Below, piece after piece: positions 13,892 to 30,648 of a DNA stretch of 64,000 nt. The first letter of the stretch is position 1. Each line of letters begins with the position of its first letter. The notes under the pieces were generated by a model. It did not search any database. It saw only the letters and a program-made list of their open reading frames with translations, and was not told the origin of the DNA. The position numbers and the translations under genes are program-made. This stretch comes from Pseudarthrobacter sp. GA104 (lineage in GTDB: Bacteria; Actinomycetota; Actinomycetes; Actinomycetales; Micrococcaceae). The stretch is from the NCBI RefSeq assembly GCF_009741265.1, contig NZ_WOWL01000001.1, forward strand, positions 310,001-374,000. Reading direction: 5' to 3'.

Positions 13892-15393
13892 CGCAGTCCC
13901 CTTCCAAGCGGCAGACCGCCGGCAACAAACGCGGCCCATTGCTGTCCGTAGAGAAGCCGAAGCTCAACGAATGCCCCGGCCGCAGCGGACTCAAGTTCCT
14001 GGCGATGCCTTGCCAAGTCCTCCAACGTGGTCGCCGTGACGGTGATGTAGGCAGCCGGGCGGACGTCACCATGGCCGGTGACGATCTCTTCCTCCCTCTG
14101 GATTACTTCTTCTTCCTCGGCCTTTTGCTCACGGGTAAGCGGCCTGTCAAAGCGGGCATTGATGCGGCGGCGGGTCTCATGCGCCTCCTGCGCGGAACGG
14201 ATGTCACGAAGGGCTTCAGCAGTAGGAACCGCCCGGATGACTTCCGTAAACGTGTGGCGGAATTCGCCCACGTAGATCAGCGGGTGCAGGAAGCCCGGAA
14301 ACACTTTCTGGCGCGGCCATTCAGCAATCCAGAAAGTCTGGTGGAACCCGGTGTCGGTCCGCAGGTAGGTCCAGTGTTCCTCAACGGCCATCGGGCCATG
14401 GCGGTGGAGGGTATCCATCTCCTCTTTTGCCCCCTCGTCCGACGGCGGGGCTGTCGCCACCGACCCTTTGGTAGCCGGTAAAGCAGCGGGATCGAATGCA
14501 CCACGAATGATCCCTAACAATCCCGGTTCCCCAATCCACTCCTCTACCTTCACGCTGTGGGTACCGAGCGACGTTTTCATTGCCTCGACTTCCAGCCGCA
14601 GGACGCGTTCCAGGCCTACCAGTCCCCCGCCCGACTCCTTGATCCGCCGTCGAGCCTTGCTGGTATCCAGGACGACCGCCACGAGGAGTTCATGGCTCAT
14701 GGTTGATTCGGCTGCACCGAGCAAGTCCTCATAGGCGCGTTGTCCCCACGCGATCTTCTCTCCGGTTTGGGCCGTGATGGCGTTGTCCTTATAGAACTCC
14801 CAGAGCGCCGACGACGGATAGGGCACGGTGTAATCCTGGACCGCGATCCGGGCCACGCTTGGCCGCTGGGCCATGCCCGCTTGCACACGCGACCAGGCCT
14901 GGACCGCCCAGGCTTTGTCGTCTGCGTCCAAGAGTGCAAAAGACCTCGTGCTGCACCGCAGCACCGCGATTGCCTCCCTGCCGTGGCGGTCGACCATGAA
15001 GCATTCACCGCTGGCCGTTGTTCGGATCTCCAGGTTGCCGAGACCGCCCGGGAGGGCGAGCCGACCAGCCAATTGCGGGACCGCGGGTTTTGCAAGGAAC
15101 CGTGTTTGTCCTGCCGCTGCCCGGTAGAAGAACACAGCGAGCTGTTTCGCCCATACGGGATAAGGAATGCGGGAATACTGGAGGAGCCCGAGCAGCATAA
15201 GCCCAAGCCAGAGGGGTCCGGAGGAAAAAAGGCCAACCGGCCCACTGCTGGCAGAAGCCACTATGGCAACCACGCCGCCCCCTGCGACTATCAACAACTG
15301 GTACCACTTAAGGCCAAGGAAGAACCCGCGGCGCTCGTATCTGGGGAATTTGACGGCCTCGAGGGCACGGGCATCGTCAGACATGTGGGGCAC
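13888..15393 (-). CDS. SCO6880-family protein: VirB3/PrgI-like helices plus VirB4 N-terminal-like domain
   Basis: 501 residues. Two adjacent membrane helices at about residues 27-50 and 55-73 follow the basic start VKFPRYERRGFFLGLKW, the pattern of PrgI/VirB3-type proteins. The remainder is a large soluble domain resembling the N-terminal part of VirB4 proteins (FMVDRHGREAIAVLRC, LRTDTGFHQTFWIAEWPR). No Walker A is present. Its stop overlaps the TTG start of the catalytic VirB4 half, so together they look like one VirB3-VirB4 module split into two coupled genes. The name SCO6880 family is from memory of the Streptomyces family. It overlaps the VirB6-like gene upstream by 17 bases. Confidence 0.82.
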   Translation of the reverse strand: MPHMSDDARALEAVKFPRYERRGFFLGLKWYQLLIVAGGGVVAIVASASSGPVGLFSSGPLWLGLMLLGLLQYSRIPYPVWAKQLAVFFYRAAAGQTRFLAKPAVPQLAGRLALPGGLGNLEIRTTASGECFMVDRHGREAIAVLRCSTRSFALLDADDKAWAVQAWSRVQAGMAQRPSVARIAVQDYTVPYPSSALWEFYKDNAITAQTGEKIAWGQRAYEDLLGAAESTMSHELLVAVVLDTSKARRRIKESGGGLVGLERVLRLEVEAMKTSLGTHSVKVEEWIGEPGLLGIIRGAFDPAALPATKGSVATAPPSDEGAKEEMDTLHRHGPMAVEEHWTYLRTDTGFHQTFWIAEWPRQKVFPGFLHPLIYVGEFRHTFTEVIRAVPTAEALRDIRSAQEAHETRRRINARFDRPLTREQKAEEEEVIQREEEIVTGHGDVRPAAYITVTATTLEDLARHRQELESAAAGAFVELRLLYGQQWAAFVAGGLPLGRGLR

Positions 15394-16750
15394 CTCCGTT
15401 CGGAGGGTCGATTCTTGGTGGATGGGGTTTCGGAGGCCGCACCCTCGAAGGGGCCGGTGGGCTTGCGTTGGGATGCGCTCGCGGTTCGGCCTCTCCGAGT
15501 GGGGCCTGCCGCGCGGATGCCGGGGCGGTACCGCTGTTTTCGCGAGGGTCTATGCGCGCTAAGCCCTGCTGCGACCCCGGTGGGTGAAGGGTGTTCGGGC
15601 CTCCGTTGGAGGGCGCGGTTCTCAAGGCCAACTGGCCGCCGCCACCCTGAGGCGACGGCATCCCGGACCGGACAGTGGGTGCCAACACTTGTGTCGGGAA
15701 GAGGCTGCGGCTTGAGCTGATGGGCCGGGTCATGGCCGACCGACTCACCAAGCCCGCAAGCGTTAGGCGACCACCCGTCTGCCGACTGATCTGGCTAGCT
15801 GCCACGCTGCTGCTCCGGGACAGGACGTGGCCGCCACCCGCCGTTTGGGCCGCTGCCGCAAGTTCCCCACCTGCGAAGCTAACCAAGCGCAGAGCCATCA
15901 ACGGTGCGCCGCAGGCAAGCGCCATGCCCACCGTTCCGGCAGCCAAACCCGCAAAGGACTTTGACTCCGCAAAGAGCTTCACTGCAACGGCCAAAACAGT
16001 TGCGGCTAAGGGTTTTGCCAACACCAGGGCAATGACCACCTCGCACCAGCGGCGAGCCCAGGACTTTGTCTTTTCCCAGGGCAGCAGCATCAAGGCAACC
16101 GGAGCGACAGCGGCCAGGACTACGAGTGCAAAGGAGCGGAAGATCATCGAGCACATCAAGATGAAGGCAAGGATCCACACGACAATAACTGCCATCACTG
16201 TAACGACGACGGCACCGGCTGGGCCCCCTGTCGTCCCAGGTGCCAGCGAGACCAAGTTCCATTCCCGACCACTTCCTTCTGGTGCCCGTTCAAATCCGAA
16301 AAGCCTCATGAACACGAGGTATGGGTCCGAACCAATCGATTCGAGCAGCGCGGCTGAGGCTAAATCACTCGCCCGCGTCAGTTGCCGGACGAGATACACG
16401 GCAGCCCCGACCAGTGGAATGGCGGCAGCGCCACCAAGCATCGCGCGGCCGATGCGTCTCGGCTGCTGACTGAGCAGACCCGACAGGACCTGGAGGATCA
16501 TCACGACGACGAGCGGCGTCATCATGACGACCACCCACCAGCTCGTCAGCCCCTCGATGGAGAGCCATTGGGAGTCGTCCACGTCCGACACGGTGAAGGC
16601 GCCAGTGATGAAGGCCCAAAGCCAGGACGCCATGTTTTGGAGGATGTTTGCGAAGAGGGACGTGACTGCGCCCAGGGCGTTGTCGTTGGCCTGTGAGACC
16701 AAACCGCAGCCGGGCGGCCACCATCCATTGAGGTCGCACTCAACAGGCAT
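15377..16750 (-). CDS. VirB6/TrbL-like multi-pass conjugation protein (SCO6881-like)
   Basis: 457 residues with about six to eight membrane segments between residues 35 and 300, for example WWVVVMMTPLVVVMILQVL, GAVVVTVMAVIVVWILAFIL and FALVVLAAVAPVALMLLPW. The motif LPWEKTKSWARRWCEVVIAL resembles the conserved loop of actinobacterial VirB6/TrbL homologues. The last 150 residues are soluble, proline- and serine-rich, ending PHPPRIDPPNGGAPHV. It would form the inner channel with the VirB3/VirB4-like proteins encoded downstream. It starts three bases after the small membrane protein gene and overlaps the SCO6880-type gene. Confidence 0.8.
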   Translation of the reverse strand: MPVECDLNGWWPPGCGLVSQANDNALGAVTSLFANILQNMASWLWAFITGAFTVSDVDDSQWLSIEGLTSWWVVVMMTPLVVVMILQVLSGLLSQQPRRIGRAMLGGAAAIPLVGAAVYLVRQLTRASDLASAALLESIGSDPYLVFMRLFGFERAPEGSGREWNLVSLAPGTTGGPAGAVVVTVMAVIVVWILAFILMCSMIFRSFALVVLAAVAPVALMLLPWEKTKSWARRWCEVVIALVLAKPLAATVLAVAVKLFAESKSFAGLAAGTVGMALACGAPLMALRLVSFAGGELAAAAQTAGGGHVLSRSSSVAASQISRQTGGRLTLAGLVSRSAMTRPISSSRSLFPTQVLAPTVRSGMPSPQGGGGQLALRTAPSNGGPNTLHPPGSQQGLARIDPRENSGTAPASARQAPLGEAEPRAHPNASPPAPSRVRPPKPHPPRIDPPNGGAPHV

Positions 16751-16753
16751 GAG

Positions 16754-17041
16754 TTAGAACCCAAGCGGGAAGGCGGTCTGTGACCAGAGGATGTAGCCGT
16801 TTATGCCGCCGAGAATGGCAGCTACGGGCCCTGTCCAGAGGAGGATCACGCCACCGCCGGAAGCAAGGCGTGACGACTGGCTAAGTTTGCCGGCCAGCAG
16901 CATCGCGGCACCGATGATAGCCACGATAGCAATGATGATGAAGGCGCCGACGAGGATGCCGCCGCCGATCTGTTTGAGCGATTCCAGGAAGGGAAAGCTC
17001 GCGTTCGGGGTGATCCCCGGGTCCACCGCTGCGAAAAACAT
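16754..17041 (-). CDS. Small two-helix membrane protein, pilin-like position
   Basis: 95 residues with a GGAG ribosome site before ATG 17041. Two membrane helices at about 28-50 and 62-84 (ILVGAFIIIAIVAIIGAAML and GGGVILLWTGPVAAILGGI) are separated by a short basic loop (GKLSQSSRLAS). Size, two helices and the position directly before the VirB6-like gene are those of VirB2-like pilins or small channel subunits in actinobacterial conjugation clusters, but no pilin signature or signal peptide is obvious. It is first in the tightly packed - strand run that ends at ssb. Confidence 0.7.
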   Translation of the reverse strand: MFFAAVDPGITPNASFPFLESLKQIGGGILVGAFIIIAIVAIIGAAMLLAGKLSQSSRLASGGGVILLWTGPVAAILGGINGYILWSQTAFPLGF

Positions 17042-17180
17042 TGGTGCTCCGTCCGTTGTGTTCCATGGAGTGAGCAGATGAGCTCACGGGTTCATGGAGG
17101 TGGCAGGGACGGAGCGACATGATCGCATTGCATAATCATCGGCAGAGAGCCTTCGTCGCGACATCGGTTTTGCCTGCCTA

Positions 17181-17220
17181 ACGAGAACCCCGCCAGCAAC
17201 GGGGCTGACGGGGTTCTCGT
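17181..17220. terminator. GC-rich hairpin before transfer operon
   Basis: Perfect 11-base arms (ACGAGAACCCC at 17181-17191 and its complement at 17210-17220) around an 18-base loop. There is no T-run on either side. It lies between the 44-codon ORF and the T4SS genes on the - strand, so it may terminate or attenuate transcription coming from 17479, or be an mRNA-stability hairpin. Confidence 0.5.
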
Positions 17221-17344
17221 ATAGATGAGCGTTAGCTCAGCAGCGTCTCGCCGTGCTCGGTACGTGACCGGACAAAGGGACGCGGGTACTTGGGTGAGCC
17301 CCAGAAGAAGTGTTCTTCTTCATCAGTGGAGCTCTGCTCTGCCT

Positions 17345-17479
17345 TCACTTGCCCTTGCCCTTCTGGGAAAGGGCACTGGCTGCGGCGGTCTTCTCGGCTT
17401 TGGTGGAGCTAGGGTTGCGCAAGACTTTGCTTGCGGCGGTTGCAGCTTTGCTGCTGGTTTGGCGGCTGTTCTTAGCCAT
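17345..17479 (-). CDS. 44-residue Ala/Lys/Ser-rich small protein
   Basis: ATG 17479 is preceded by GAAGGAACAGGATT, a good ribosome site. The protein begins MAKNSRQTSSKAATAASKVL and ends ALSQKGKGK, rich in Ala, Ser, Lys and Thr with no cysteine or aromatic residue. I recall very similar short, basic, low-complexity proteins (TSSKAATAASK... TAAASALSQ) as conserved hypotheticals in Arthrobacter and other actinobacteria; function unknown. A DNA- or nucleoid-binding role is only a guess from charge. It lies downstream of the 21-codon ORF and upstream of the T4SS genes on the same strand. Confidence 0.7.
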   Translation of the reverse strand: MAKNSRQTSSKAATAASKVLRNPSSTKAEKTAAASALSQKGKGK

Positions 17480-17576
17480 AATCCTGTTCCTTCAGGTCGA
17501 TCCATTTGAAAAGGTGGGACCGGCGCTTTGATTCGAGCGATCCCAGCACCGGGCCCGGGGCCTCCAACTCAGCGCC

Positions 17577-17642
17577 TTAGCGCTGGGTCGGGCGGATACG
17601 GATGGTCCGCTTAATGCGGATCCGTACTACACGTGTAGCCAT
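17577..17642 (-). CDS. 21-residue Arg/Ile-rich micro-ORF
   Basis: ATG 17642 has a near-ideal ribosome site (GGAAAGGAG, eight bases upstream). The 21 residues (MATRVVRIRIKRT, then IRIRPTQR) alternate basic and branched hydrophobic residues, an amphipathic beta-like pattern with nine Lys/Arg. The stop lies in an AGCGC-CTTA-GCGCT hairpin. It may be a leader peptide controlling the downstream 44-codon ORF and transfer operon, or a free micropeptide. The strong ribosome site in a region otherwise empty of genes is the only evidence. Confidence 0.45.
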   Translation of the reverse strand: MATRVVRIRIKRTIRIRPTQR

Positions 17643-17828
17643 TTGTGGCTACTCCTTTCCGGGATCACCGGGCACAAGACACGAAACGTTGTCAAGATTG
17701 ACGAATGTTCTAACCGCTCGTAGTCTGTTCTGACGTTCCTAGTTCGAACGAAAACGACAAAACACAATATCTTGGGCCGTTGCGCACCCTCTTTGGCTGC
17801 GTGGCGTAGTCCCTATTTGGTTGTAAAT

Positions 17829-17865
17829 GAAGCGCATGTTTGGGTACCAGCCGAACGTGCGCTTC
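17829..17865. repeat. 15-base-arm inverted repeat in transfer region
   Basis: Arms GAAGCGCATGTTTGG (17829-17843) and CCGAACGTGCGCTTC (17851-17865) with a 7-base loop; 13 of 15 pairs match in DNA, and the two mismatches become G-U pairs in a + strand transcript. It could be the hairpin of an oriT, a replication or regulator site, or fold as an RNA. The neighbouring CCTAGAT-5-ATCTAGG dyad is listed separately. Confidence 0.6.
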
Positions 17866-17897
17866 GTTGCGTGATCCACCATCTGGATGAACCCGTA

Positions 17898-17916
17898 CCT
17901 AGATACTACATCTAGG
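17898..17916. repeat. 7-base-arm palindrome
   Basis: CCTAGAT and ATCTAGG are perfect inverted arms around ACTAC. The size fits a dimeric regulator's operator. It is 32 bases beyond the larger inverted repeat, in the same non-coding interval. Confidence 0.4.
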
Positions 17917-18379
17917 GCTGACGCCTCTTAGGAACCCCAAGATGATGTATTACAAGGATGTCATTTAATGCACCTTTAATCCACAGGCAGGTGCCCTTAG
18001 AATGCCCGGAAAACCGCGATCCTGAGGGCGAAATCCACATCCTGTGGAGTACTTAGCCACATTTAACGCTCAGCGTGTCGTGGAAAAAACGGCGTGTCGC
18101 ACCTCGGCAAAAGGGTTTTCTGGTAGCCTCCAAGCCCTCAATTGCCCAAGATGGCAGACAATCGTCGCAGTCAGTAGGGGTGAATCTCTAGGGGTCTGTA
18201 TCGAGGGCACTAAAGGTCAATCGAGACAGCGAAACCGGCAGCTTCCCCAAGCTCTTATGCGTTGAAATCTAGCCGGGATTCGGCGATGAGCGCGTGAACC
18301 GAACGCCTACCCGGCGGGCGTGTAAAGCACGACCAGTGGGTCGGGTACCGTCCGCGTCTCGCCAATCGCAGAAAGTTCC

Positions 18380-19501
18380 TCAGTGACCTAACAGGTCAAA
18401 GTAGGCCGCACCAGGATTCCAGCTCACGGGATGCAGCAATGTCCCTACCGCCGGGTTGAGGGCACTCCACATCATGCCGTCACCCGCGTAGATACCGACG
18501 TGGCCCCAGTTGTCGGGTCCCTGCGGATTTTGAACCACTAGGTCTCCTGGTTGTGGATCCTCTGTTCGGACACCAACGCGCCATTGTTCTACTCGGGGCA
18601 GCTCGATTCCGGCTTGCCTGTAGATCCACTGCACATAGCCGGAGCAATCCCAGGCTTTGAAGGCAGTCCCTCCCCACACATATCTTCCGCCCAAACCTTC
18701 TTTGGTGAACTTCAGAATGTCCTGACGCAACTGGCTCAAGTTACGGGAAGATGCTCCGGGCCGCGGCGCTGGCGACGAATCTGCACAGGAGGCAGGAGCA
18801 GTGCCACCCTCAAGCGCAGCAACGATTGCCGTGGCCGCCGGCTCCCAACGCGCATACAGTTCGGGAAAAGCAGACACCTGGACTGCTTGAGCCGCCAAAC
18901 CTTTGTCCATTCCCTGCCAACCGGGAATGTCCAGGAGCCCTCGAGGACTGCCGCGGTTCGGTCCCGACGGCCCGCCATAGAACGCGCGCGCGTTATAGGA
19001 GGGGTCCATAAGCTGCGCAACTGTCCCCCAGCCCGCCGCCGGACGCTGTTGGGCTGAACCGATCGAGTCGTGGTCCCGCCCAACACCGTCATTGGGGAGA
19101 TGTAAGGAAGCCGGCACGCTGGGGTTCGCGAGCATGCGCAGGCTAGACTCTTGCAGCGCCATCATGATGGCGATGATCTGCCCGGAGCGCGGTATTCCAA
19201 GCTGCTTACCTACCGCGATGTATGTCCGTGCAACGCTCTCCTGCCGAGGCGTCAGCCCGTAGAGCAAGCGCCCAGCGTTCCGAACTTCCAAGCCGGCACC
19301 AGTGACGTTAGGGTCAGTGGCTATCCCTGATCCCGCTGGTGTACAGGCAACTGCAGATTGCCGCGCCACACCAGTTAGCGCCGCCACGCCTCCGGCAAAT
19401 GCCATGGCGCCAACAAGCAGAGCGAGGGAAGCGGCCGCCGATACGACCTTCACCAATGCCCGGCGCCGCATGAGGCCTGCAACGGCAACCAGCCCAGCCA
19501 C
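18380..19501 (-). CDS. NlpC/P60 wall hydrolase of the conjugation system (VirB1-like)
   Basis: 373 residues from GTG 19501, which overlaps the last base of the VirB8-like gene's stop (TAGTG); the open frame to 19582 would run deep into that gene. A basic start and membrane segment (MRRRALVKVV, then ASLALLVGAMAFAGGVAAL) anchors or exports it. Residues about 85-230 include transglycosylase-like text (IAIMMALQESSLRMLANP). The last 120 residues are NlpC/P60 with catalytic Cys in WDCSGYVQWIYRQAG (near 282) and His in WGHVGIYAGDG (near 333). It would open peptidoglycan locally so the channel can be assembled. Confidence 0.88.
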   Translation of the reverse strand: MAGLVAVAGLMRRRALVKVVSAAASLALLVGAMAFAGGVAALTGVARQSAVACTPAGSGIATDPNVTGAGLEVRNAGRLLYGLTPRQESVARTYIAVGKQLGIPRSGQIIAIMMALQESSLRMLANPSVPASLHLPNDGVGRDHDSIGSAQQRPAAGWGTVAQLMDPSYNARAFYGGPSGPNRGSPRGLLDIPGWQGMDKGLAAQAVQVSAFPELYARWEPAATAIVAALEGGTAPASCADSSPAPRPGASSRNLSQLRQDILKFTKEGLGGRYVWGGTAFKAWDCSGYVQWIYRQAGIELPRVEQWRVGVRTEDPQPGDLVVQNPQGPDNWGHVGIYAGDGMMWSALNPAVGTLLHPVSWNPGAAYFDLLGH

Positions 19502-20214
19502 TAGTAGACGATTCTCTCTGCTGTCGCGTAGAAAGCAACCATGGCGCAGCGCCCAGTTGGAGCGGTGGTGGCAGGAGGACAATTGACCAACACCGTGACA
19601 GGTGCCGCATAGGCACTTCTGCCGTTACTGGACTCGTCCACAACTTGCACCGTCACCGTGCATACGTGAAGGCCCTCCCACGGGGCCGGATACTCCTGAA
19701 CCTTGGCCAACTCGAGATCGCAGCGTAGGGACTCAGCGGTGCCGCTTCGGCGAGCCGACTGTTCTGCCAGGCTGGTGAACGTCCCCGCGGTCACGCCAGT
19801 CCCTTCAAACTCTCGAACCAACACAGATAAGGGATTCGACCCATCAGGCAGCAACTCCCACCACGACCGCACCTTGGCATATACATCCGAGTACGACGAC
19901 GAACGGCTGTCCCAGCTATAGATTCCCTTTGCTGCCGCTACAGCGAGCGCCCGGTAATCGCGGGTACGCGGCAAATCATCCGGCGTTGCCTCCGCCGTAA
20001 CGACCGGCTCGTCAGGAACACCGGACGTACTGCCTGGTGCAGTGGCAGTGCCTGATGGCTTCGCCGTTGACGGCGCGGTTGCGGACGATGTCGGCGGGAC
20101 TTGTCCGCGGGGGCTATCGGCAGGCCAAAGTAGGAAGACTGCACTAATCATGAGCAGGGCAACCAGTCCTGCCGCCAGCCACTCCCGGCGGTCAACTCTA
20201 CGGAACCAATTCAT
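19501..20214 (-). CDS. VirB8/TcpC-like single-pass conjugation protein
   Basis: 237 residues: a short basic cytoplasmic start (MNWFRRVDRREW), one membrane helix at about 13-30 (LAAGLVALLMISAVFLLW), a Pro/Ser/Thr-rich linker to about 85, then an extracytoplasmic domain of 150 residues. That layout and the place between the wall hydrolase and a regulator fit VirB8/TcpC-type channel scaffolds of Gram-positive conjugation systems. No catalytic motif is seen. Two cysteines (DLELAKVQ region and VNCPP) could form a disulfide outside the cell. The family assignment rests on architecture and context, not a sequence signature. Confidence 0.65.
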   Translation of the reverse strand: MNWFRRVDRREWLAAGLVALLMISAVFLLWPADSPRGQVPPTSSATAPSTAKPSGTATAPGSTSGVPDEPVVTAEATPDDLPRTRDYRALAVAAAKGIYSWDSRSSSYSDVYAKVRSWWELLPDGSNPLSVLVREFEGTGVTAGTFTSLAEQSARRSGTAESLRCDLELAKVQEYPAPWEGLHVCTVTVQVVDESSNGRSAYAAPVTVLVNCPPATTAPTGRCAMVAFYATAERIVY

Positions 20215-20243: not shown

Positions 20244-21143
20244 CTACAGAGCCGGTCCATGCACTTCATGCTGAAGCACGCGCCATGCTGCCTGGTACAA
20301 CTGCCGGGCAAATCCGATGTTGACCGCAATGTACCTTTCGGTGACACCGAGCTCACAGGCCAGAGCAGCCATCTGGACGGACCTATCCAGTCCCCGCAGT
20401 CCGGGACGGACAATAGTCTCCGCGACGCTCCGAAGAACGTTTGTGGGAAGGCAGTTCGCAGCGCACCGGCAGAGATCGTCGATGTCTAACCCGGGCTCGG
20501 GGTGGCAGTTCAGTGCCGTGTTGATCGTTTTGGCCGTCTGCCGAACGACGGTTACGGCATGCCACCGACGCCGGTCTTTGGGAGACGGTGGTCCGTAATG
20601 CCTCGGCCCCGTGAGGCTGGATACGGCAAGCCTCCAGGTTTCCTCACTGACGCTGCGCTGGACCAGGCCCAGCATGGCGTGTGCCCAAGCCTGATCAACA
20701 TAGTTCTCGACGTCGTTTCCTGACGCCCCAGCATGGATGACAGCAAGAACCTCCGGTGAGCTTTCCGTCGTCGTGAAGTCAACAAGCAAGGGCAACGTTT
20801 GATGGCTAAGCTCGCGCCGGATATGGGCAGCGCAGATCTTGTTGCAGATACCTTGAACCCACGCCTCAAACGGGATGCCGGGCAGCTCCCGGTAGCGTCC
20901 CCGCGCAACCCCGTCCCACACGGCGACTCGGATATCCTGCATGACGTCGTCCACGTCGCAGGCTCGCCCAATCCGCGCGAGCCGGGAAACGACGTAACGG
21001 TGCACCCCATCAACCGCGACCATGATCCGGTCGATCTGGATGACGGGTTCTCCCGGCGGAGGTGCGCTTCGCAATGAGACATCCACGTCAGCGACCGTCT
21101 CTGGTCCCTTTGTAGATTGATATGCCTTGGCTTCAATTTCCAT
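20244..21143 (-). CDS. Sigma-factor-like regulatory protein of the element
   Basis: 299 residues. Residues about 38-105 resemble sigma-70 region 2: VHRYVVSRLARIGRACDVDD, VMQDIRVAVWDGVARGRY, then FEAWVQGICNKICAAHIRR. The C-terminal 45 residues contain a helix-turn-helix-like stretch (AALACELGVTERYIAVNIGF) where region 4 would be. The middle 130 residues are unlike a standard ECF factor. Inferred: a sigma-like activator of the transfer operon that begins just downstream. It could instead be a degenerate sigma homologue that binds DNA only. It is divergent from the winged-helix regulator at 21330. Confidence 0.65.
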   Translation of the reverse strand: MEIEAKAYQSTKGPETVADVDVSLRSAPPPGEPVIQIDRIMVAVDGVHRYVVSRLARIGRACDVDDVMQDIRVAVWDGVARGRYRELPGIPFEAWVQGICNKICAAHIRRELSHQTLPLLVDFTTTESSPEVLAVIHAGASGNDVENYVDQAWAHAMLGLVQRSVSEETWRLAVSSLTGPRHYGPPSPKDRRRWHAVTVVRQTAKTINTALNCHPEPGLDIDDLCRCAANCLPTNVLRSVAETIVRPGLRGLDRSVQMAALACELGVTERYIAVNIGFARQLYQAAWRVLQHEVHGPAL

Positions 21144-21329: not shown

Positions 21330-21653
21330 ATGCCGAGAATTACGCAGCCTCACGACGCCGCCTGGTCGGCCGACGTCGAGGCTGCCGTCGCAACCTTCGG
21401 CAACCGGGCGCGAAACGAGATTCTTCGATTCCTCACGGCCACTGGGCCCGCGACGCGCGGAGACATCGTCGCTGCTGTCAGCGCGGGCGATCCCAGCGTG
21501 GCCAAGCATCTGGCGGCGCTCGAAGAGGCAGGCGTGGTGATGGTCGACGTCGAGCCTGGACGTAGACACGGACGGTCACCGAGGTATTCCGCGAACCCTG
21601 TCCGGATCAAGGAACTGCTCGACGCTCACCTTAAGTACTTGCTGGAAAAGTAA
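21330..21653 (+). CDS. ArsR-like winged-helix regulator
   Basis: 107 residues. VATFGNRARNEILRFLTATG then RGDIVAAVSAGDPSVAKHLA and LEEAGVVMVDVEPGRRHGRS show an ArsR/MarR-type winged helix with recognition helix and wing. No metal-binding CxC motif, so it is not a typical metal sensor. It is divergent from the sigma-like gene and convergent with the EspR-like gene. The core aligns without gaps with the protein at 22384-22722. A role in controlling element genes is inferred from position. Confidence 0.75.
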   Translation: MPRITQPHDAAWSADVEAAVATFGNRARNEILRFLTATGPATRGDIVAAVSAGDPSVAKHLAALEEAGVVMVDVEPGRRHGRSPRYSANPVRIKELLDAHLKYLLEK

Positions 21654-21684: not shown

Positions 21685-22194
21685 TTAGTCCGCGCGCTCC
21701 GGCGCCTCATCCGCGTCCAACTGCGGACTGGCCTCGGCCCTCTCCCCTTCCGGCCGACGGCCAATGTCCTTATTCAAGTACTCTGTGATCGCCCGAAGCG
21801 TCTCGGGCGACACGTCACCAAGGGTCCGCGCCGCGAACGTCTTCACCCTCGCAGCGCGGAGAGATTTCACAAACTCAAGCTGGGAATCAATGCGCTCGGG
21901 AAGATCTGAGGCGTCGCTGCCCATCAGGTAATTTGGATCCACATTAAAGATGTCGCACAGGGCGCCTAGCAGCGCGGGGTCGCTCACCAGCCTGCCTGTG
22001 CCGTCTTTCATGTAGAACCAGCGGGCTCTGGAAAGCTTGATGCCCTTCTCCGCCAGCTTCTGCTGGACTTCGCGGAACGTGACGGGTTGTCCTCGCTCTG
22101 CAACGACGACGTCGAGCAGCAGGTTTAGGCGCCGTGCAAGTTCGGCTTGGGGAGAGAGTTCCGCGCCTTTGAGACCTTCTTCGTCTCCGGACAC
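21685..22194 (-). CDS. EspR-like helix-turn-helix regulator (copy 1)
   Basis: 169 residues from GTG 22194 with a perfect GGGAGG ribosome site. Layout matches mycobacterial EspR: ARRLNLLLDVVVAERGQPVT at the start, an HTH with REVQQKLAEKGIKLSRARWF, a short wing-like GRLVSDPALLGALCDIFNVD, then a helical dimerisation tail. EspR-type proteins bind DNA as dimers of dimers and act as global regulators. The copy at 23776-24219 aligns with it along most of its length (for example ARVKTFAARTLGDVSPETLR versus ARVKNFAARQLQELSPETLA). Probably controls its own region or the element. Confidence 0.75.
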   Translation of the reverse strand: MSGDEEGLKGAELSPQAELARRLNLLLDVVVAERGQPVTFREVQQKLAEKGIKLSRARWFYMKDGTGRLVSDPALLGALCDIFNVDPNYLMGSDASDLPERIDSQLEFVKSLRAARVKTFAARTLGDVSPETLRAITEYLNKDIGRRPEGERAEASPQLDADEAPERAD

Positions 22195-22327
22195 GATTCA
22201 CCTCCCAAACCAGACCTGACTATCGTCAGCGAGTCACTAATTGTTGCCCAGTATTGCCTTGGCCAAGTCCACATGCAATAAGCGGGGCTTCGTCCTTCCA
22301 TCCGTATGTGGATGAGCGTATCGTTCT

Positions 22328-22347
22328 GCTGTAGACCCGTCTACAGC
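22328..22347. promoter_or_regulatory. Palindromic operator candidate
   Basis: GCTGTAGA-CCCG-TCTACAGC has perfect 8-base arms. It lies 36 bases upstream of the ATG of the winged-helix gene at 22384, in the divergent region shared with the EspR-like gene. That is the expected place for an autoregulatory site of either protein. Confidence 0.55.
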
Positions 22348-22383
22348 GGGGTACAGGAATTCCCTCGTCACCTGGTGGTCTCC

Positions 22384-22722
22384 ATGGCGAACATCTTGAT
22401 GAACCGGACGCGAAGCCGCCTTATTCGCTATTTGATCACCCACGGCCCGGCGACCTGCCGTGAGGTCGCTGCAGCCCTCACCATTTCTGCTTCCTCTGTC
22501 CGCAAACACCTCAGTCTTCTATGCGAGGCAGGCGTAGTCATCCTCGGTTCGGGAACGTACAAGGCGCGGCCGGATATTGTCGAAAGGGAGCTTGCGGACC
22601 TTGCGGCCACGTTTCAGTCAGCGGGCAGCGACCTCAGGAACTGCGTAACGGACGACTCCCACTTCACGGTATCGGCGTTCCACTCGAGTGAATGCCCCGG
22701 AACATCGAAGCGAACCAACTGA
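22384..22722 (+). CDS. ArsR-like winged-helix regulator (second copy)
   Basis: 112 residues from ATG 22384 (the frame opens at 22306 but the homologous region begins here). MNRTRSRLIRYLITHGPATC then REVAAALTISASSVRKHLSL and LCEAGVVILGSGTYKARPD form a winged helix closely related to the protein at 21330-21653. The last 36 codons overlap the 3' end of the alpha/beta hydrolase gene on the other strand (109 bases tail to tail), and this tail is probably not conserved. A palindrome lies just upstream. Confidence 0.7.
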   Translation: MANILMNRTRSRLIRYLITHGPATCREVAAALTISASSVRKHLSLLCEAGVVILGSGTYKARPDIVERELADLAATFQSAGSDLRNCVTDDSHFTVSAFHSSECPGTSKRTN

Positions 22723-23789
22723 ACGAGGTCTGGTCGTAGTTCGGCGAATCGTTCAGAGACTGCGACCGGCGTCGATTTGTCATCGACCCCGTGCAATATG
22801 AGCGTCGGTGTCTTTAGGTCACCAGCGCGGGTTAACCAGTCCAGCGCGGAGAGGTCAATGGATTGCTTGAGACCCGTGACCCAGCGGCCCGCATTCGAAC
22901 CCAACAAACTCAGCCCAGCCCTGGCGATAGCCTTAGGCAATCCACTGGCACTCCCGTTAGACGTCAGAGTCTCGGCCCAATCCAGGACGGGAGCCACGAG
23001 CACCAGGCCGATGATCCGATTAGAATGGGCTGAGAGATTTGCCGCACGCAGAGCCATGGAACCGCCCAGAGACCATCCAAACAATACGAGCCGCTCGGCG
23101 CCACGGTCCACGGCGTACCTAATGGCTGCTTCGACATCCAACCACTCATTCTGGCCCAATGAGTACCGGGAATCGTTCGACGGCGGCGCTTCGCCGTCGT
23201 TCCGGAATGACACGACCAGGGATGTAATTCCGAGTCTTGTCGCAACAGGAACACCGCGAAGGGCGCCGGCTCGTTTTCCACCCATTCCATGCGCGTGGAT
23301 GGCCCATGTCGAAGACGCCGGACCGGCCGCCGTTGGCGCGAATTTCCATGCAGGCGCCATACCGCCGTCGACCTGAATCTCCACGTTCTGAAAAGGCAGG
23401 CCCAGTTGCTCTGGTTTGGAGTACGCGTACCCGCTCCAGATGCCGGCGGTAGCAGCGTGTAAGTCACCGGAGTCGACTCGCTCCACAAGACGAGTCACTG
23501 TTCCCTTATCCGTCTCTTCATCTACGACAGGACCGATGCAGGCGTGGCCCTTCCCGTTGCCGAACCACAAACTGTATCGGCCCGGCGCCCTTGTCAATGG
23601 GGTCGCTGGCAGTTCAATCCTCAGTGTTCCATCCTCGCCGGAGAAGACTTGCCTGATGGAAAGATCCTCCCGTCGCGTAGTACTCGGCACCACCACCCGG
23701 CGCGCAAAATAGGCGGCACCGAGGAACGTTATTGAGGATGCGCATACAGCTGCGACGGCTAGCGGGGCCAGCACTTTAGGAGCCTTCAT
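22614..23789 (-). CDS. Membrane-anchored alpha/beta hydrolase
   Basis: 391 residues from ATG 23789, which has AGGAG six bases upstream; the TTG at 23813 is less likely. A signal-anchor helix (LAPLAVAAVCASSITFLGAA) is near the start. The hydrolase core has the oxyanion-loop-like HAHGMGGKRAG, nucleophile GWSLGGSMAL, acid in LILHGVDDKSTP and histidine in DVPGHSLEWN. It is a serine hydrolase of unknown substrate. It aligns along its C-terminal half with the chromosomal hydrolase at 63483-64000. It overlaps the EspR-like gene by 14 bases and is last in the ImmA/membrane/EspR run. Confidence 0.85.
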   Translation of the reverse strand: MKAPKVLAPLAVAAVCASSITFLGAAYFARRVVVPSTTRREDLSIRQVFSGEDGTLRIELPATPLTRAPGRYSLWFGNGKGHACIGPVVDEETDKGTVTRLVERVDSGDLHAATAGIWSGYAYSKPEQLGLPFQNVEIQVDGGMAPAWKFAPTAAGPASSTWAIHAHGMGGKRAGALRGVPVATRLGITSLVVSFRNDGEAPPSNDSRYSLGQNEWLDVEAAIRYAVDRGAERLVLFGWSLGGSMALRAANLSAHSNRIIGLVLVAPVLDWAETLTSNGSASGLPKAIARAGLSLLGSNAGRWVTGLKQSIDLSALDWLTRAGDLKTPTLILHGVDDKSTPVAVSERFAELRPDLVQLVRFDVPGHSLEWNADTVKWESSVTQFLRSLPAD

Positions 23790-24219
23790 CTTCGCTCCTG
23801 ACGTGCTTGTCAATGACCTCCCTAAGTCGCGCCAGAGTTTCGGGAGACAACTCCTGCAATTGCCTTGCTGCGAAATTTTTGACGCGAGCCTCTCGCATCG
23901 ACCTAAGGAGGTTGAGCTGGGCTTCCACTAGTTCGGGTATCTCTGTTGAGTCATCCAGAAGGTAACGGCGATCCACGCCGAAGAATGTCGCGAGGTTCTG
24001 CAGCAGATCCTGGTCCATAGCGAGGGAGCTATCACCGCTGCGCATGTAGGCCCACCTTGACCGCGACAACGGCGTGCCATGTTCAGTCATTGCTTCGCTG
24101 ACTTCCCTGAAAGACAAGGGCCCTGTTCCTCGGGACTCATACAAATCCAGCAGGAGATTGATCTTGCGAGCGAGCCTGGCCTGCGGCGAGTCCGAGTGTT
24201 CTACGGCATCATCTGCCAC
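23776..24219 (-). CDS. EspR-like helix-turn-helix regulator (copy 2)
   Basis: 147 residues from GTG 24219 with a GGGGGAGGGG stretch upstream; the frame also opens at GTG 24264. The 24219 start gives the same distance to the ARKINLLLDL segment as in copy 1. HTH text REVSEAMTEHGTPLSRSRWA is followed by QDLLQNLATFFGVDRRYLLD and a helical tail ending KHVRSEDEGS. It overlaps the membrane-protein gene by 11 bases and the hydrolase by 14, so all three are one transcript. Probably the regulator of this small operon. Confidence 0.72.
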   Translation of the reverse strand: MADDAVEHSDSPQARLARKINLLLDLYESRGTGPLSFREVSEAMTEHGTPLSRSRWAYMRSGDSSLAMDQDLLQNLATFFGVDRRYLLDDSTEIPELVEAQLNLLRSMREARVKNFAARQLQELSPETLARLREVIDKHVRSEDEGS

Positions 24220-25246
24220 TTGGGTTCTTCCCCCTCCCCCATCGCGTCGTGCCCAATCGAACACCCTGCGTGTCCCTATGGGAAGCGAGGTAGGTCTCTG
24301 TTCGAGTCAATGTTTGAAAATCAGCTTCATCCAGCAACTTAGCAGCAGCGGGATCCATCAGGAGAGCATCCTCGATCTCGACGAGCATCCGATGAAGCCT
24401 CCGCGTCTCTGGGTCTCCCCGCTCGATGACTCCAGCGGGCGTCGCCAGGCGACCATCCTTGCGGGTAGCGGTCGCTTTTTCCCAAGTGGATGTGAGGTTT
24501 TTCAGTAAGCCAGCTTGAGTCCTCTGTTGCGTTCGTTGAACGATGCGGCGCGCTACTGGTGGCAGGGCCAGGCCAGCACACAGGAACAACATCGCCCCGA
24601 CAAAACTGGAGTCGTAGATAGCCGCCAACTGCTGCATGGTCGACTGGTCACCGAGAAGATGGGCTAGGTCCATTCCCAAGACTGAGAACACTACGACGAG
24701 AGCCAGGAAGCAGCCGATGCCGATGAGGGTGAAGGCGACGCGAAAGTAGGAGGCGGCCATCCGCCGTCGGAATCTAAAGCACACGTATCCGGTGACGCCG
24801 ATGACCACCCCGATGTAAACAAACTGGATGGTGGAATAGAGGGCGGCAGCAGGCTGGTCCCCGTAATCCAACATGAATCTCGTTGAGGACACGGGTGCTT
24901 CGATGCGGAGGAATGCAAGGACGAGCCCGGCGGAGACTAGACCCAAAACCATAAGGCCAAGACGATCCTTACCAACAGGTGCATCGTTGAGCTCTGCAGC
25001 CCGGAGGATGGCCTGGGAAAGGAAGTAGATTCCAACGACCATCAAGATGTTCGCGAACAGATCTAGGAGGTTGCGGCCACCGAGGGCTCGATCACCCGTG
25101 ATATAGATCGGGTCGACATTCAAGGAAAGCGCGATGGCGATCGCCACGGCGGCAACTAGGATGCTGTGGTCTTTTCTGGCGCGGGCGCCGGGCAGCAGGC
25201 ACAGAACGAGGCACCAGATGACAGCGGCGGCGACTGCCTGGATCAC
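24209..25246 (-). CDS. Multi-pass membrane protein (MAB_1171c-type putative transporter)
   Basis: 345 residues. Seven or so hydrophobic helices fill residues 1-240 (for example AVAAAVIWCLVLCLLPG, LFANILMVVGIYFLSQAIL, FVYIGVVIGVTGYVCFRF). The last 100 residues are a soluble helical tail with RRLHRMLVEIEDALLMDPAA. The layout and the partner, an ImmA-type metallopeptidase gene overlapping by 4 bases, match what I recall as the MAB_1171c family, common in mycobacteria and Streptomyces beside ImmA and HTH genes. What it transports, if anything, is unknown. Confidence 0.65.
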   Translation of the reverse strand: MIQAVAAAVIWCLVLCLLPGARARKDHSILVAAVAIAIALSLNVDPIYITGDRALGGRNLLDLFANILMVVGIYFLSQAILRAAELNDAPVGKDRLGLMVLGLVSAGLVLAFLRIEAPVSSTRFMLDYGDQPAAALYSTIQFVYIGVVIGVTGYVCFRFRRRMAASYFRVAFTLIGIGCFLALVVVFSVLGMDLAHLLGDQSTMQQLAAIYDSSFVGAMLFLCAGLALPPVARRIVQRTQQRTQAGLLKNLTSTWEKATATRKDGRLATPAGVIERGDPETRRLHRMLVEIEDALLMDPAAAKLLDEADFQTLTRTETYLASHRDTQGVRLGTTRWGRGKNPSGR

Positions 25247-25731
25247 CCGAAGACCTGTTCAAATGATCTTGGCTCCATAGTGCTGTCGCGGATAGCGCCG
25301 GCAAGAAGATCAGCGAGAGTCTCAGCTGCAGCCTCCAGATCGTCGACGAAGCTACTCCGTGCCAGAGCTCTTGACACCATCTCTCCGTCAAGATTTGGGA
25401 AAAGACTGCCCGCATATTCGGAGGAGATCCCCAACTCATCGTGGCGCAGGATCATATGTCCAAGTTCATGAAGGATGAACTGCTGCCTATGGAGCGCTGA
25501 GTCCGTGAATGCGTGCAGAATGATTTCCCGAGTATCCGTCGACAACCAGAGACCGCAGACGGACGTGCCGTTGAGGATCGTCGTGGCTTCGATCTCGATT
25601 CGACGCCTACGTCGGGCGGCCACGATTGCTATGAGCCTCTCCAGCGTCAGGTGGCTCGGTAGCCGCAGTGATACGAATGCCTCGGCCGCAACCTGAGCTG
25701 GCCCCTGTCCTTCCGATTTTTGCTCGTCCAT
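25243..25731 (-). CDS. ImmA/IrrE-type metallopeptidase (ParH-like)
   Basis: 162 residues from ATG 25731, which has an AGGAGG ribosome site; the open frame to 25812 has none. The zinc site QFILHELGHMILRHDE is near residues 84-99 with a downstream acidic region (LEAAAETLADLLAGA) that supplies the third ligand in this family. ImmA-type proteases cleave regulators, often an HTH repressor in the same operon. Here a membrane protein and an EspR-like HTH follow in overlapping order, so cleavage of the EspR-like protein is a testable idea. First gene of the four-gene run. Confidence 0.8.
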   Translation of the reverse strand: MDEQKSEGQGPAQVAAEAFVSLRLPSHLTLERLIAIVAARRRRRIEIEATTILNGTSVCGLWLSTDTREIILHAFTDSALHRQQFILHELGHMILRHDELGISSEYAGSLFPNLDGEMVSRALARSSFVDDLEAAAETLADLLAGAIRDSTMEPRSFEQVFG

Positions 25732-25826
25732 ACCGCCCCTCCTTGCAGCGGACAGCAAGCGTGACTGCCATTGCCAGCTGCCACCGGAGCGCACAGGGCG
25801 CCCCAACTTCAATTGAACTCCCCCGC

Positions 25827-25842
25827 TCTGGACATGTCCAGA
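25827..25842. promoter_or_regulatory. Perfect 16-base palindrome, operator candidate
   Basis: TCTGGACATGTCCAGA is a perfect palindrome 96 bases upstream of the ImmA-type gene. Size and symmetry fit a dimeric HTH protein such as the EspR-like product of the same operon. It is not a LexA box (no GAAC/GTTC halves). Confidence 0.55.
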
Positions 25843-28944: not shown

Positions 28945-29352
28945 TCAACGCGCCGTCGCCAGTCTGACTTTGGACCGAGTACCGATGAGCCTCTCCTTCG
29001 TCACGGGCCCACTGCCGGAGAGCGGGGAGCCAGTGCTGCCGGGAAGGATCTCACTCAACTTTGCGATTTCCAGGATGTGTTCGGAGGTAAAAATGATCTT
29101 TCCTTTTCCCCAGCACGCATGCGGGAAGCGCCCGCTAGCGGCGCCGTCGCGGAGCCATGATTCGGTGCAGCGCATCAGCGCGGCTGCTTCTGCGGGTTCA
29201 AAGAATTCGATCTCCACGGGATCTCCAAAAGGAAGGCGGTTGCTTTCCACTTTCATGACGGCTTGGAGACCGACCGACATGACCGGCGCTGCGCGGCGGG
29301 CAAGGGAACCCGGGGACACACATTCCGCCGTGCTGAGTAGTAGGACGGTCAC
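28945..29352 (-). CDS. Excisionase-like helix-turn-helix protein
   Basis: 135 residues from GTG 29352, whose GTGA overlaps the integrase stop; internal ATGs at 29280 and 29256 are alternatives and none has a good ribosome site. The core VEIEFFEPAEAAALMRCTES, then WLRDGAASGRFPHACWGKGK, is a MerR/excisionase-type DNA-binding domain in which a helix-turn-helix reads the site and a wing (KIIFTSEHILEIA) follows. Known: such proteins direct tyrosine integrases to excise. Coupling after int, rather than before it, is an unusual order. The C-terminal 30 residues are basic. Confidence 0.7.
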   Translation of the reverse strand: MTVLLLSTAECVSPGSLARRAAPVMSVGLQAVMKVESNRLPFGDPVEIEFFEPAEAAALMRCTESWLRDGAASGRFPHACWGKGKIIFTSEHILEIAKLSEILPGSTGSPLSGSGPVTKERLIGTRSKVRLATAR

Positions 29353-30479
29353 CGCAGGAAAGCCGTTATCGACCGCTCAGTCGCGTCAGCACCAGCCTGA
29401 AGCGCCTCCGGCATCAAGTGCCCGTACACCTGCTCAGTAGTCCTGGTAGAGGCATGCCCCAGCCGACGCGAGATGGTGAACAAGGGCACACCATCCTGGA
29501 TCAGCCATGAAGCGTGAGTGTGGCGGAGGTCGTGGATCCGCGGATTCTTGGTCAGGCCGATTGCCTGGGCCGTGCGAACGGCAGGCACCCAGTAGTGGTG
29601 CCAGTAAAGCTTGTGGATGATGCGCGCGCCCGAAGGTGTTGTAAACACGAGGTCCTTGCCCGGTCTGCTGGCGACCAAGGGAATCAACAACTCCACCAAG
29701 GCAGGGTTCAACCCTATGGTTCGCTTGCCGGCACCTGTCTTCGTCGCCCCGATGTAGAACTGGTTCTGGCCGTCCCGTTTCCAGGCCTTGTTGATCCGGG
29801 CCGTAGGCGGTTTCGAGAGCAGGTCGACGTCAGCAACAGTAAGGGCGGTGGCCTCCCCGAAGCGGGTACCGGTCATGACCAGGAAGTTAGTGAAGGCCTT
29901 GTACCGCTCCCCCATCCCCTCCATGATGAGGCTGAACTCCGCGTGGGTCAGGAACATTGCCTCGTCCTCGGCCTTTTCAATCCCGGGGAGCTGCACGCCG
30001 CGGCAAGGGTTCCGCGAAATATAGCCGAGCATCTCAGCAGTATTCATTGATGCCGAAATCAGGCCATGAACATTGTGGATCGTCTTTGGCGCCTTGCCCT
30101 TGGCCATCATGGACTTCACCCAGTGGGCGATCAGACGGTAATCGAGCTTGTCTACGGGGACGCGGCCGATGACGTTCCGGATGTGCAGGTCCAGCATGGT
30201 CTGGTACGTCTTCGTGGTTCCACTCGACGGCCGGATCAGAAGGTCGATGTGCTCCTGGATGACTTCAGCAACAGTCGGTGTGCGCTTCTCGTTGGAGAGG
30301 ATGGCGTGCTGCGCGATTTCGAAGGACTGGCCGTTGGCGTCCAGCAGCCTCTTCAGGGTCTCAGCTTCGACGATCGTGGCAACTGTCAGGCCCTGCTGCT
30401 CGCGGCTCTTCGGGTCCCGCCACAACACCATGTAGGACGCAGAGCCGTCCTTTTTGGTGCGTTTTCGAATGCTTGCCAC
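29349..30479 (-). CDS. int: Tyrosine recombinase / integrase of the element
   Basis: 376 residues from GTG 30479. N-terminal arm-binding domain (MASIRKRTKKDGSASYMVLW), SAM-like core-binding domain at about 70-160, and a catalytic domain with Arg in MTGTRFGEATAL (near 205), HDLRHTHASWL (near 316), GHASTRTTEQ and the nucleophile Tyr in QVYGHLMPEAL (near 350). The complete R-K-H-R-H-Y set appears present. It is 87 bases from the 3' end of tRNA-Leu(CAA), the expected target. Two direct repeats of TGTCAACAC lie in that gap. It would insert and excise the island. Confidence 0.93.
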   Translation of the reverse strand: MASIRKRTKKDGSASYMVLWRDPKSREQQGLTVATIVEAETLKRLLDANGQSFEIAQHAILSNEKRTPTVAEVIQEHIDLLIRPSSGTTKTYQTMLDLHIRNVIGRVPVDKLDYRLIAHWVKSMMAKGKAPKTIHNVHGLISASMNTAEMLGYISRNPCRGVQLPGIEKAEDEAMFLTHAEFSLIMEGMGERYKAFTNFLVMTGTRFGEATALTVADVDLLSKPPTARINKAWKRDGQNQFYIGATKTGAGKRTIGLNPALVELLIPLVASRPGKDLVFTTPSGARIIHKLYWHHYWVPAVRTAQAIGLTKNPRIHDLRHTHASWLIQDGVPLFTISRRLGHASTRTTEQVYGHLMPEALQAGADATERSITAFLR

Positions 30480-30528: not shown

Positions 30529-30566
30529 CCAAAGAGGGAACAGGCCCTTGACCTGCGGAAACACTG

Positions 30567-30648
30567 TGCCCGAGGTGGGACTCGAACCCACACACCTTTC
30601 GATACCGCATTTTGAGTGCGGCGCGTCTGCCAATTCCGCCACTCGGGC
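30567..30648 (-). tRNA. tRNA-Leu (CAA), integration target
   Basis: 82 bases with acceptor stem GCCCGAG/CTCGGGC, discriminator A, D-loop text TGGCGGAATTGGCAGACGC, anticodon stem-loop CCGCA-CTCAAAA-TGCGG giving CAA, long variable arm (ATCGAAAGGTGT) and GGTTCGAGTCC. CCA is not encoded. The element lies off its 3' end, so the right attachment site should be within the 3' half of this gene. The gene is complete and should be functional. Confidence 0.95.

Follow-up and report, generated by a model that had tools for sequence, protein, structure and literature searches.

In the BlaR1/BlaI system, a membrane sensor and a zinc protease remove a repressor. ImmR/ImmA modules, as described for ICEBs1 of Bacillus subtilis and for TnSmu1, consist of an HTH repressor and an HExxH metalloprotease encoded on an integrative conjugative element (PMC6540685, PMC10233336). 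The four-gene operon analyzed here is located in a window of 64 kb (the whole stretch of DNA that was analyzed) and encodes a zinc metallopeptidase, a seven-helix membrane protein, an EspR-like HTH protein (HTH1) and an anchored hydrolase (Table 1). In the open-licence papers searched, no description was found of what this gene set does.

Table 1. Features of the operon and of its surroundings in the window.
Feature	Position	Strand	Basis or remark
TrwC-type relaxase-helicase	3476..7078	+	Pfam TrwC 3e-72
Type IV secretion region	10626..20214	-	Pfam
VirD4/TraG	10626-12449	-	Pfam
VirB4-like	12446-13939	-	Pfam, weak matches
TrbL/VirB6	15377-16750	-	Pfam
NlpC/P60	18380-19582	-	Pfam
Sigma-70 region-2-like protein, head of transfer region	20244..21143	-	weak profile matches
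ArsR-like regulator ArsR1	21330..21653	+	Pfam HTH_5 5.3e-7
Second EspR-like HTH protein (HTH2)	21685..22194	-	45% identity to HTH1
ArsR-like regulator ArsR2	22306..22722	+	Pfam HTH_20 2.8e-9
O2, second palindrome GCTGTAGACCCGTCTACAGC	22328..22347		between divergent ArsR2 and HTH2
Membrane-anchored alpha/beta hydrolase	22614..23789	-	Pfam Abhydrolase_1 2.1e-10; GWSLGG; longest ORF 22614-23813
EspR-like HTH protein (HTH1)	23776..24264	-	profile match to EspR 3r1f; longest ORF 23776-24264
Seven-helix membrane protein with cytosolic helical tail, MAB_1171c/DUF6545-like	24209..25246	-	topology and model; longest ORF 24209-25246
ImmA/IrrE-like zinc metallopeptidase, 162 aa	25243..25731	-	HELGH motif; longest ORF 25243-25812, opening at TTG 25812
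Predicted promoter (putative role)	25812..25840	-	-35 TGGACA 25840-25835 (within palindrome), 17-base spacer, -10 TTCAAT 25817-25812
O1, palindrome TCTGGACATGTCCAGA	25827..25842		exact; candidate operator
Tyrosine integrase	29349..30479	-	Pfam Phage_integrase 8.4e-21
tRNA-Leu(CAA)	30566..30648	-	ARAGORN

The host of the operon is an Arthrobacter-like bacterium. Because a relaxase, type IV secretion genes and an integrase at tRNA-Leu are all present in the window, the operon is carried by an integrated conjugative element, the location that is also a feature of ImmR/ImmA modules. The element is likely integrated at the 3' end of tRNA-Leu(CAA). No repeat of the tRNA end of at least 12 bases was found within positions 1-29000 of the window. 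A match to the tRNA-Leu 3' end (22 bases with one mismatch) exists at C1:233711; with this match as the left end, which is unproven, the element would span about 107 kb. The sigma-70-like protein showed weak matches to Pfam Sigma70_r2 (1.8e-4, 21.7 bits, cut-off 24) and NCBIfam ShbA (2.1e-7, 30.9 bits, cut-off 209). The HTH2 gene, the two ArsR-like genes, the conjugation-gene setting and the exchangeable fourth gene were absent from the earlier note on this DNA.

The four overlapping ORFs in one operon order that the earlier note claimed are all present on the minus strand, and the 16-base palindrome that it placed upstream is exact. The successive longest ORFs overlap by 4, 56 and 38 nt. Since TTG 25812 falls within the predicted -10 box, the protease likely starts at ATG 25731, behind AAGGAGGGG, which gives a product of 162 aa. 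For the hydrolase ATG 23789 is the most likely start, and HTH1 may start at GTG 24219. With the starts corrected from alignments and upstream sequences, the overlaps are about 4, 11-56 and 14 nt.

In the protease, H88, E89, H92 and E137 are invariant in an alignment of 30 sequences, and H88, E89 and H92 form the HExxH motif. Its predicted model matched IrrE (3dte) with a Z of 9.7 (rmsd 3.1, 106 aligned) and CapP (7t5t) with a Z of 8.2, and BlaR1 was among the fold matches (Z 3.9). By sequence, no credible relative was found in the PDB (best E 0.37). The match to Pfam Peptidase_M78 (PF06114; 15.4 bits, E 0.017) is under the curated cut-off of 22, and the match to PADLOC capP is weak (E 4.9e-3). 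HTH1 is probably a repressor. It had no Pfam match and a weak match to PADLOC capH (E 2.3e-4), and positions 15-145 of 152 of its family profile (A4) matched EspR 3r1f with an E of 2.9e-19, so the homology covers both the HTH and the C-terminal part. The hydrolase has one N-terminal TM segment, which is N-in by charge, and a motif-assigned triad (S240, D337, H366) that is invariant in 14 sequences.

The membrane protein matched the MAB_1171c family (NF042915) with 86.9 bits (E 1.3e-24), below the curated cut-off of 100; matches above this cut-off exist in 7 of 197 genomes of the host's family. The match to DUF6545 is weak (13.1 bits), and no credible relative was found in the PDB by sequence (best E 0.1). 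In a comparison with the GPCR fold, its model aligned to VIA with a Z of 15.5 (rmsd 4.0, 237 aligned, 8% identity), where helical models often reach about 14, and the best Foldseek E was 0.015. According to a report on Mycobacterium abscessus, a knockout of MAB_1171c formed about half the biofilm of the reference strain, and its clarithromycin and cefoxitin MICs were below those of that strain (PMC8707978). The metallopeptidase, the EspR-like regulator and the multi-pass membrane protein that had been proposed earlier are consistent with the IrrE/CapP-like predicted fold with its HELGH, the profile match to EspR, and the seven helices found by topology prediction and structure modelling. The hydrolase had been called secreted or anchored; the N-terminal TM segment, with the triad kept behind it, points to the anchored form.

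The gene set recurs at other loci, and the lack of co-occurrence that the earlier note would have taken as a refutation was not observed. All four genes were present in 48 of the 49 named loci, which were fetched by the membrane protein, and an EspR-like HTH match was found in 48 of 49, so that HTH and protease are paired as in ImmR/ImmA modules. Class-wide, with the membrane protein as query, an ImmA-like gene was located within two genes of it in 107 of 123 loci; ImmA and HTH were accepted on either strand, L032, L036, L041 and L042 were excluded, and loci in which no membrane protein was labelled were dropped. The fourth gene varies among loci, being a hydrolase, PAP2-like, an MpaB oxygenase, a P450, an FAD enzyme, an amidase or an amidohydrolase. 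In the 106 rows where an ImmA neighbour lies on the same strand, the enzyme type clusters on the receptor tree, although no fewer than six changes among three types are required, and the distances of membrane protein, ImmA and HTH correlate (r 0.80, 0.72 and 0.73; n=81; 0 of 500 permutations as high), which may in part come from whole elements having a common ancestry. The counts do not represent independent events, since near-copies are frequent among the loci and different counts share some of their loci (e.g. L063/L209, L064/L187); they are also rough, because the gene caller misses some genes (annotated genes in the ImmA position on L032 and L036 were unlabelled).

T4SS or relaxase matches were found in 40 of the 49 named loci. 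With queries derived from the window, the fractions were 15 of 59 for the shorter loci in the host's family, 4 of 10 for plasmid regions and 6 of 60 for loci of other Actinomycetes. Transfer control is therefore not the general role of the module. The module adjoins ParA/ParB, lytic or transfer genes in 7 of the 10 plasmid regions read, and the conjugative catabolic plasmid pAO1 carries it.

With up to three mismatches, TCTGGACATGTCCAGA had 2 matches in 64 kb versus 0.25 expected. In 30 of 31 close relatives, an exact copy of its 12-base core lies no more than 400 bp upstream of the protease gene, against 0.001 expected per locus, and O1 is therefore more than chance; all 16 bases are kept in 27 of the 31 loci. 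The core covers the -35 box of the predicted promoter, whose spacing is 17 in 29 of the 31 loci and 18 in one, the pattern being missing in the last. Allowing two mismatches, the 30-base site-plus-promoter pattern, counted without regard to adjoining genes, was found in 41 of 198 genus genomes and its reversed control in none. The arms flanking O1 covary, with 24, 22 and 17 of 30 paired at distances 10-12 versus shuffled means of 15.6, 8.6 and 7.7, and this covariation is beyond what a plain operator explains. A plain terminator, which the covariation had raised, was rejected, since no T run follows the site and the site overlaps a promoter with a 17-base spacer.

The core of O2 (TGTAGAC..GTCTACA) is present in all 17 loci examined, the window among them. 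Plasmid-type relatives use a different palindrome, AAACATGTTT, which occurs in two places in all 11 loci carrying it: one copy precedes the protease match by 99-186 bp, and the other follows the HTH match by 14-57 bp and stands in front of the transfer genes. One locus has a third copy, and 0.006 is expected per locus. Palindromes of other sequences were also paired in this way in 10 of 17 loci tested, versus a random-window mean of 0.88 (max 3) and 0 with shuffled letters; the pair is missing in the remaining 7. Eight loci had been dropped before this test, L095 with its membrane protein unlabelled and L097, L098, L100, L121, L124, L137 and L159 with the downstream HTH missing. Among 18 more distant named loci, both palindromes are missing in 7. 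In the window's own clade, no second O1 was found before the transfer genes (31 loci, up to two mismatches), so transfer control there must be indirect. Four extra O1-like sites with up to two mismatches exist in these 31 loci, one of which is exact and adjoins a relaxase match; in the window, only a one-mismatch 10-mer was found, at 20097 inside an ORF.

We consider it about an even chance that the four genes work together as a repressor/antirepressor switch that has a membrane input, for which we infer the binding, cleavage, gating, ligand and enzyme role. HTH1 would dimerise on the palindrome over the -35 box and repress its own operon, and it would also repress the transfer genes of the element, directly or via the adjoining HTH2/ArsR/sigma cascade. 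A small molecule, either extracellular or carried in the membrane, would be sensed by the 7TM protein, whose cytosolic tail would license the ImmA-like protease. Cleavage of HTH1 by this protease is plausible, and the inactivation of HTH1 would switch on the operon and the transfer genes. The hydrolase, whose active site would face the exterior, would make or destroy the ligand; in other copies of the operon, its place would be taken by a different enzyme that acts on small molecules or lipids. Such a switch probably helps to decide when the element is transferred to another cell. Because the operators are invariant, the question is directly testable.

A cytosolic signal such as ssDNA could instead activate the protease, as in a DNA-damage-type ImmR/ImmA or CapH/CapP switch, with the membrane protein and the hydrolase as effectors or cargo. 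PprI and CapP are described as ssDNA-activated (PMC10904395, PMC13373217), and the protease model is closest to IrrE/PprI and CapP, with the weak capH/capP profile matches in the same direction. However, the protease remains near the membrane protein in those 107 of 123 loci while the enzyme varies. IrrE-type proteins are also longer (the 3dte chain has 247 residues and is matched over 8-126), so the ssDNA-sensing parts may be absent from the protease, and this explanation is unlikely. The range of partner enzymes (hydrolase, MpaB oxygenase, P450, FAD enzymes, amidase and amidohydrolase) fits a detoxification or stress-response operon, whose membrane protein would sense an envelope-active compound that the enzyme destroys, the conjugative location being cargo. 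The biofilm and MIC effects of the MAB_1171c knockout (PMC8707978) and the 54 of 60 loci outside the host's family without a T4SS or relaxase match agree with it, but on plasmid-type loci the palindrome pairs connect the module with the transfer region, and the plasmid regions mostly place it beside ParA/ParB, lytic or transfer genes, which makes this reading improbable.

It is very improbable that the genes form a toxin-antitoxin or phage-defence unit in which the protease or the hydrolase acts as the toxin. Xre-COG2856 pairs had at one time been suggested to be toxin-antitoxin systems (PMC2701414), and distant phage-family relatives of the protease (0.0016) and hydrolase (1e-11) are present in PHROGs. 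In contrast, among the six window proteins scanned PADLOC gave only weak capH, capP and RmrA matches and no CBASS match, and the membrane protein had no match in 50,697 phage records or in viral contigs. A phage origin of the operon was rejected on the latter result, the other parts having, in PHROGs only, weak matches and one esterase match (1e-11). Where the earlier note had named signalling or immunity, the co-occurrence, protease fold, EspR-like HTH, seven helices and anchored hydrolase with its triad speak for signalling, while the weak PADLOC matches, the membrane protein without phage or viral match and the conjugation setting speak against immunity.

If true, a receptor-protease-repressor switch with a swappable enzyme would let a mobile element sense its environment in a way that is new. 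It would be relevant to conjugative catabolic plasmids, pAO1 among them, and the MAB_1171c/DUF6545-ImmA-HTH sets that occur throughout the class would gain a function. A wider reading, which we regard as doubtful, is that Actinomycetota possess a modular system of mating signals that are not peptides. In this system, a 7TM receptor resembling GPCRs would gate a soluble zinc protease, which would destroy the repressor specific to the element; an envelope enzyme that can be exchanged would write or erase a lipid-like signal, and the receptor, enzyme and operator code of each element type would set the timing of its transfer.

Compared with the known systems, the membrane protein is a relative of the MAB_1171c family, which is named a putative transporter and whose cut-off it does not reach. 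HTH1 is homologous to EspR but, unlike EspR, is encoded in a mobile-element operon together with a protease. CapH/CapP and DdrO/IrrE(PprI) resemble the window operon in the predicted protease fold and in the weak profile matches, whereas here the protease is shorter and a membrane partner is present. With BlaR1/BlaI the operon shares the idea of a membrane sensor and a zinc protease removing a repressor, but sensor and protease are separate proteins and the sensor model is a 7TM bundle. As in ImmR/ImmA of ICEBs1 and TnSmu1, an HTH protein and an HExxH protease are paired on a conjugative element; in contrast, the HTH protein of the window is EspR-like, and its operon also encodes a 7TM protein and an enzyme.

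The operon consists of four overlapping minus-strand genes encoding an ImmA/IrrE-like peptidase, a seven-helix membrane protein, an EspR-like HTH protein (HTH1) and an alpha/beta hydrolase. In the family scan, the hydrolase matched Abhydrolase_1 (2.1e-10), the protease scored 15.4 bits against the ImmA/IrrE family M78, below the cut-off of 22, and the membrane protein matched the MAB_1171c family profile NF042915 with 86.9 bits (E 1.3e-24), below the cut-off of 100. HTH1 had no match in the Pfam scan, and its alignment matched EspR structures (E 2.9e-19). The ATG is the likely start codon of the protease gene, because the TTG sits within the predicted -10 box.

Positions of the operon and associated features
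Feature	Position	Comment
Operon	22614-25842	minus strand
O1, putative operator	25827-25842	palindrome TCTGGACATGTCCAGA
O2, second palindrome	22328-22347	
HTH2, second EspR-like gene	21685-22194	
Protease start, ATG	25731	favoured
Protease start, TTG	25812	
Last tRNA-Leu 3' copy	30567-30588	
Stretch with tRNA-Leu 3' copies	C1:30507 to 340567	contig of the window's own genome
Lone hydrolase paralog	63483-63983	L170:1544-2614

The protease residues H88, E89, H92 and E137 are kept in all 30 sequences. Its model (pLDDT 79) gave Z scores of 9.7 to IrrE (3dte), 9.1 to PprI and 8.2 to CapP, and Foldseek matched it to CapP with E 5.7e-3. PADLOC weakly matched HTH1 to capH and the protease to capP. The membrane protein has seven helices; charge places its N-terminus outside and its C-terminus inside. 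In its tail, H285, R286, E290 and D293 are invariant. Its model (pLDDT 77) ranked GPCR-type bundles at the top with a best Z of 15.5; helical models commonly score about 14, so the similarity indicates arrangement rather than kinship. The catalytic triad of the hydrolase is invariant (14 sequences) and is preceded by a single N-terminal helix, so that the catalytic domain would face the cell exterior.

The gene set recurs in relatives. Within the family, 66 of 197 genomes have an NF042915 match, and at E 1e-10 the class-wide figure is 69 of 394 genomes. Neighbourhoods were fetched for 60 loci inside the family and 60 outside it but within the class. By home-made gene calls, ImmA lies within two genes of the membrane protein in 107 of the 123 loci counted, and an EspR-like HTH within four genes in 92. 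Among 49 loci from the named-genome scan, 48 contain protease, membrane protein, EspR-like gene and hydrolase; the exception (L222) has only the protease and a partial membrane protein. Some of these loci are, by their matching lengths, the same contigs as other fetched loci, so the sets are not independent. Named loci whose membrane protein is about 90% identical to that of the window are Arthrobacter, which suggests an Arthrobacter-like host (Micrococcaceae). The membrane protein was also matched in 16 plasmid records, 11 of them typed conjugative, including pAO1, and 7 of the 10 plasmid regions read have ParA/ParB, lytic or transfer genes next to the module.

The enzyme gene is the variable member. 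A second copy in the window's own genome has a PAP2-like gene instead of the hydrolase (PAP2 matches of relatives score under the Pfam cut-off), and other loci have MpaB oxygenase, SRPBCC, DUF4192, P450, amidase, amidohydrolase, FAD enzyme or methyltransferase neighbours. ImmA and HTH are present with none of the three commonest enzyme types in 44 of the 123 loci. On the membrane-protein tree, a quick tree of 106 rows with several long branches, partner type is clustered, with 16 changes of four states versus a shuffled mean of 48.1, and at least 6 changes among three named types. Four loci (L094, L096, L098, L100) have an alternative pair without ImmA, similarly placed next to ArsR-like or transfer-region genes: a short membrane protein of about 242 aa and a protein of about 243 aa, for which the one copy scanned had no Pfam match. 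Separately, a hydrolase paralog about 39 kb from the operon is 45% identical over 361 aa, and no protease, membrane-protein or HTH relative was found in the 8 kb read around it.

In 30 of 31 loci with at least 50% membrane-protein identity, the O1 core TGGACATGTCCA is found no more than 400 bp before the protease gene; the remaining locus (L201) has one mismatch. All 16 bases are exact in 27, and the predicted promoter TGGACA-17 bases-TTCAAT is found in 29, with an 18-base spacing in one more. No conservation is visible 5' of O1 in the upstream rows of relatives compared. The 30-base site-plus-promoter pattern (up to 2 mismatches) occurs in 41 of 198 genus genomes versus 0 for the reversed control, and is absent from the one other same-species genome examined. 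In ten relaxase-type loci, O1 lies between relaxase and protease gene. The arms flanking the core differ between 30 distinct loci yet tend to stay mutually complementary, one locus (L184) reaching a 40-base perfect palindrome; this could reflect selection for symmetry or a hairpin.

In eleven plasmid-type loci, O1 is replaced by AAACATGTTT, which stands 99–186 bp before the protease match and again 14–57 bp beyond the HTH match, in front of the transfer genes (two copies in 10 loci, three in one; several loci are near-copies). A matching palindrome pair was found in 10 of 17 loci having a transfer-region lytic gene, versus a mean of 0.88 (maximum 3) for random windows and 0 for shuffled letters. 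The pair sequence differs from module to module, as orthogonal repressors would require. O2 is invariant between HTH2 and the ArsR-like gene ArsR2 in 17 of 17 loci. In 8 of 8 loci read (L207, L208, L209, L211, L214, L215, L217, L221), the distance from the centre of the second operator to a following start codon is exactly 26 nt, and the ORF opened by this codon runs antisense to the ArsR-like gene; the transfer transcript may begin there without a leader, or the spacing may be a coincidence among near-copies.

The left half of the window has lower GC and carries genes for TrwC relaxase, ArdC-like, VirD4, weakly VirB4-like and TrbL/VirB6 proteins and an NlpC/P60 enzyme, and a tyrosine integrase adjoins tRNA-Leu(CAA). 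From this gene content, the region is taken to belong to an integrative conjugative element. Its left end was not found among repeats of the tRNA-Leu end in the window and its own genome. The second EspR-like gene, two ArsR-like genes and one weakly sigma-like gene separate the operon from the secretion genes. With the window's own proteins as queries, which miss distant T4SS genes, and with stretch lengths differing between sets, T4SS/relaxase matches were found in 40 of 49 named loci (stretches up to 17 kb), 15 of 59 shorter family loci, 4 of 10 plasmid regions and 6 of 60 loci elsewhere in the class. The 22-base tRNA-Leu 3' sequence (up to 1 mismatch) has 15 copies on one strand over 310 kb. 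Among nine copies read, left flanks are alike in all and right flanks in the eight non-tRNA copies. Only 5 integrase-family places were found in the whole genome, 3 of them within this stretch. The arrangement resembles islands that have accumulated in tandem at common attachment sites and mostly lack an integrase of their own.

The operon parts are of known kinds. No description of the gene combination, the swappable enzyme or the paired operators was found in the literature searched, where PMC8707978 was the only paper found naming MAB_1171c; it reports that the knockout formed roughly half as much biofilm as the reference strain and had lower MICs of clarithromycin and cefoxitin.

The palindrome covers the predicted -35 box, which points to repression there, presumably by the EspR-like HTH protein. 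Given the clustering of enzyme type on the receptor tree, the membrane protein would be the natural input of the switch and the exposed enzyme the natural handler of its ligand. The plasmid-type relatives give the best support for control of transfer; in the window's clade, any such control would be indirect or use other sites. Release would likely come from inactivation of the HTH protein by the protease, by analogy with ImmR/ImmA, present on conjugative elements (PMC6540685, PMC10233336), and with CapH/CapP and DdrO/PprI.
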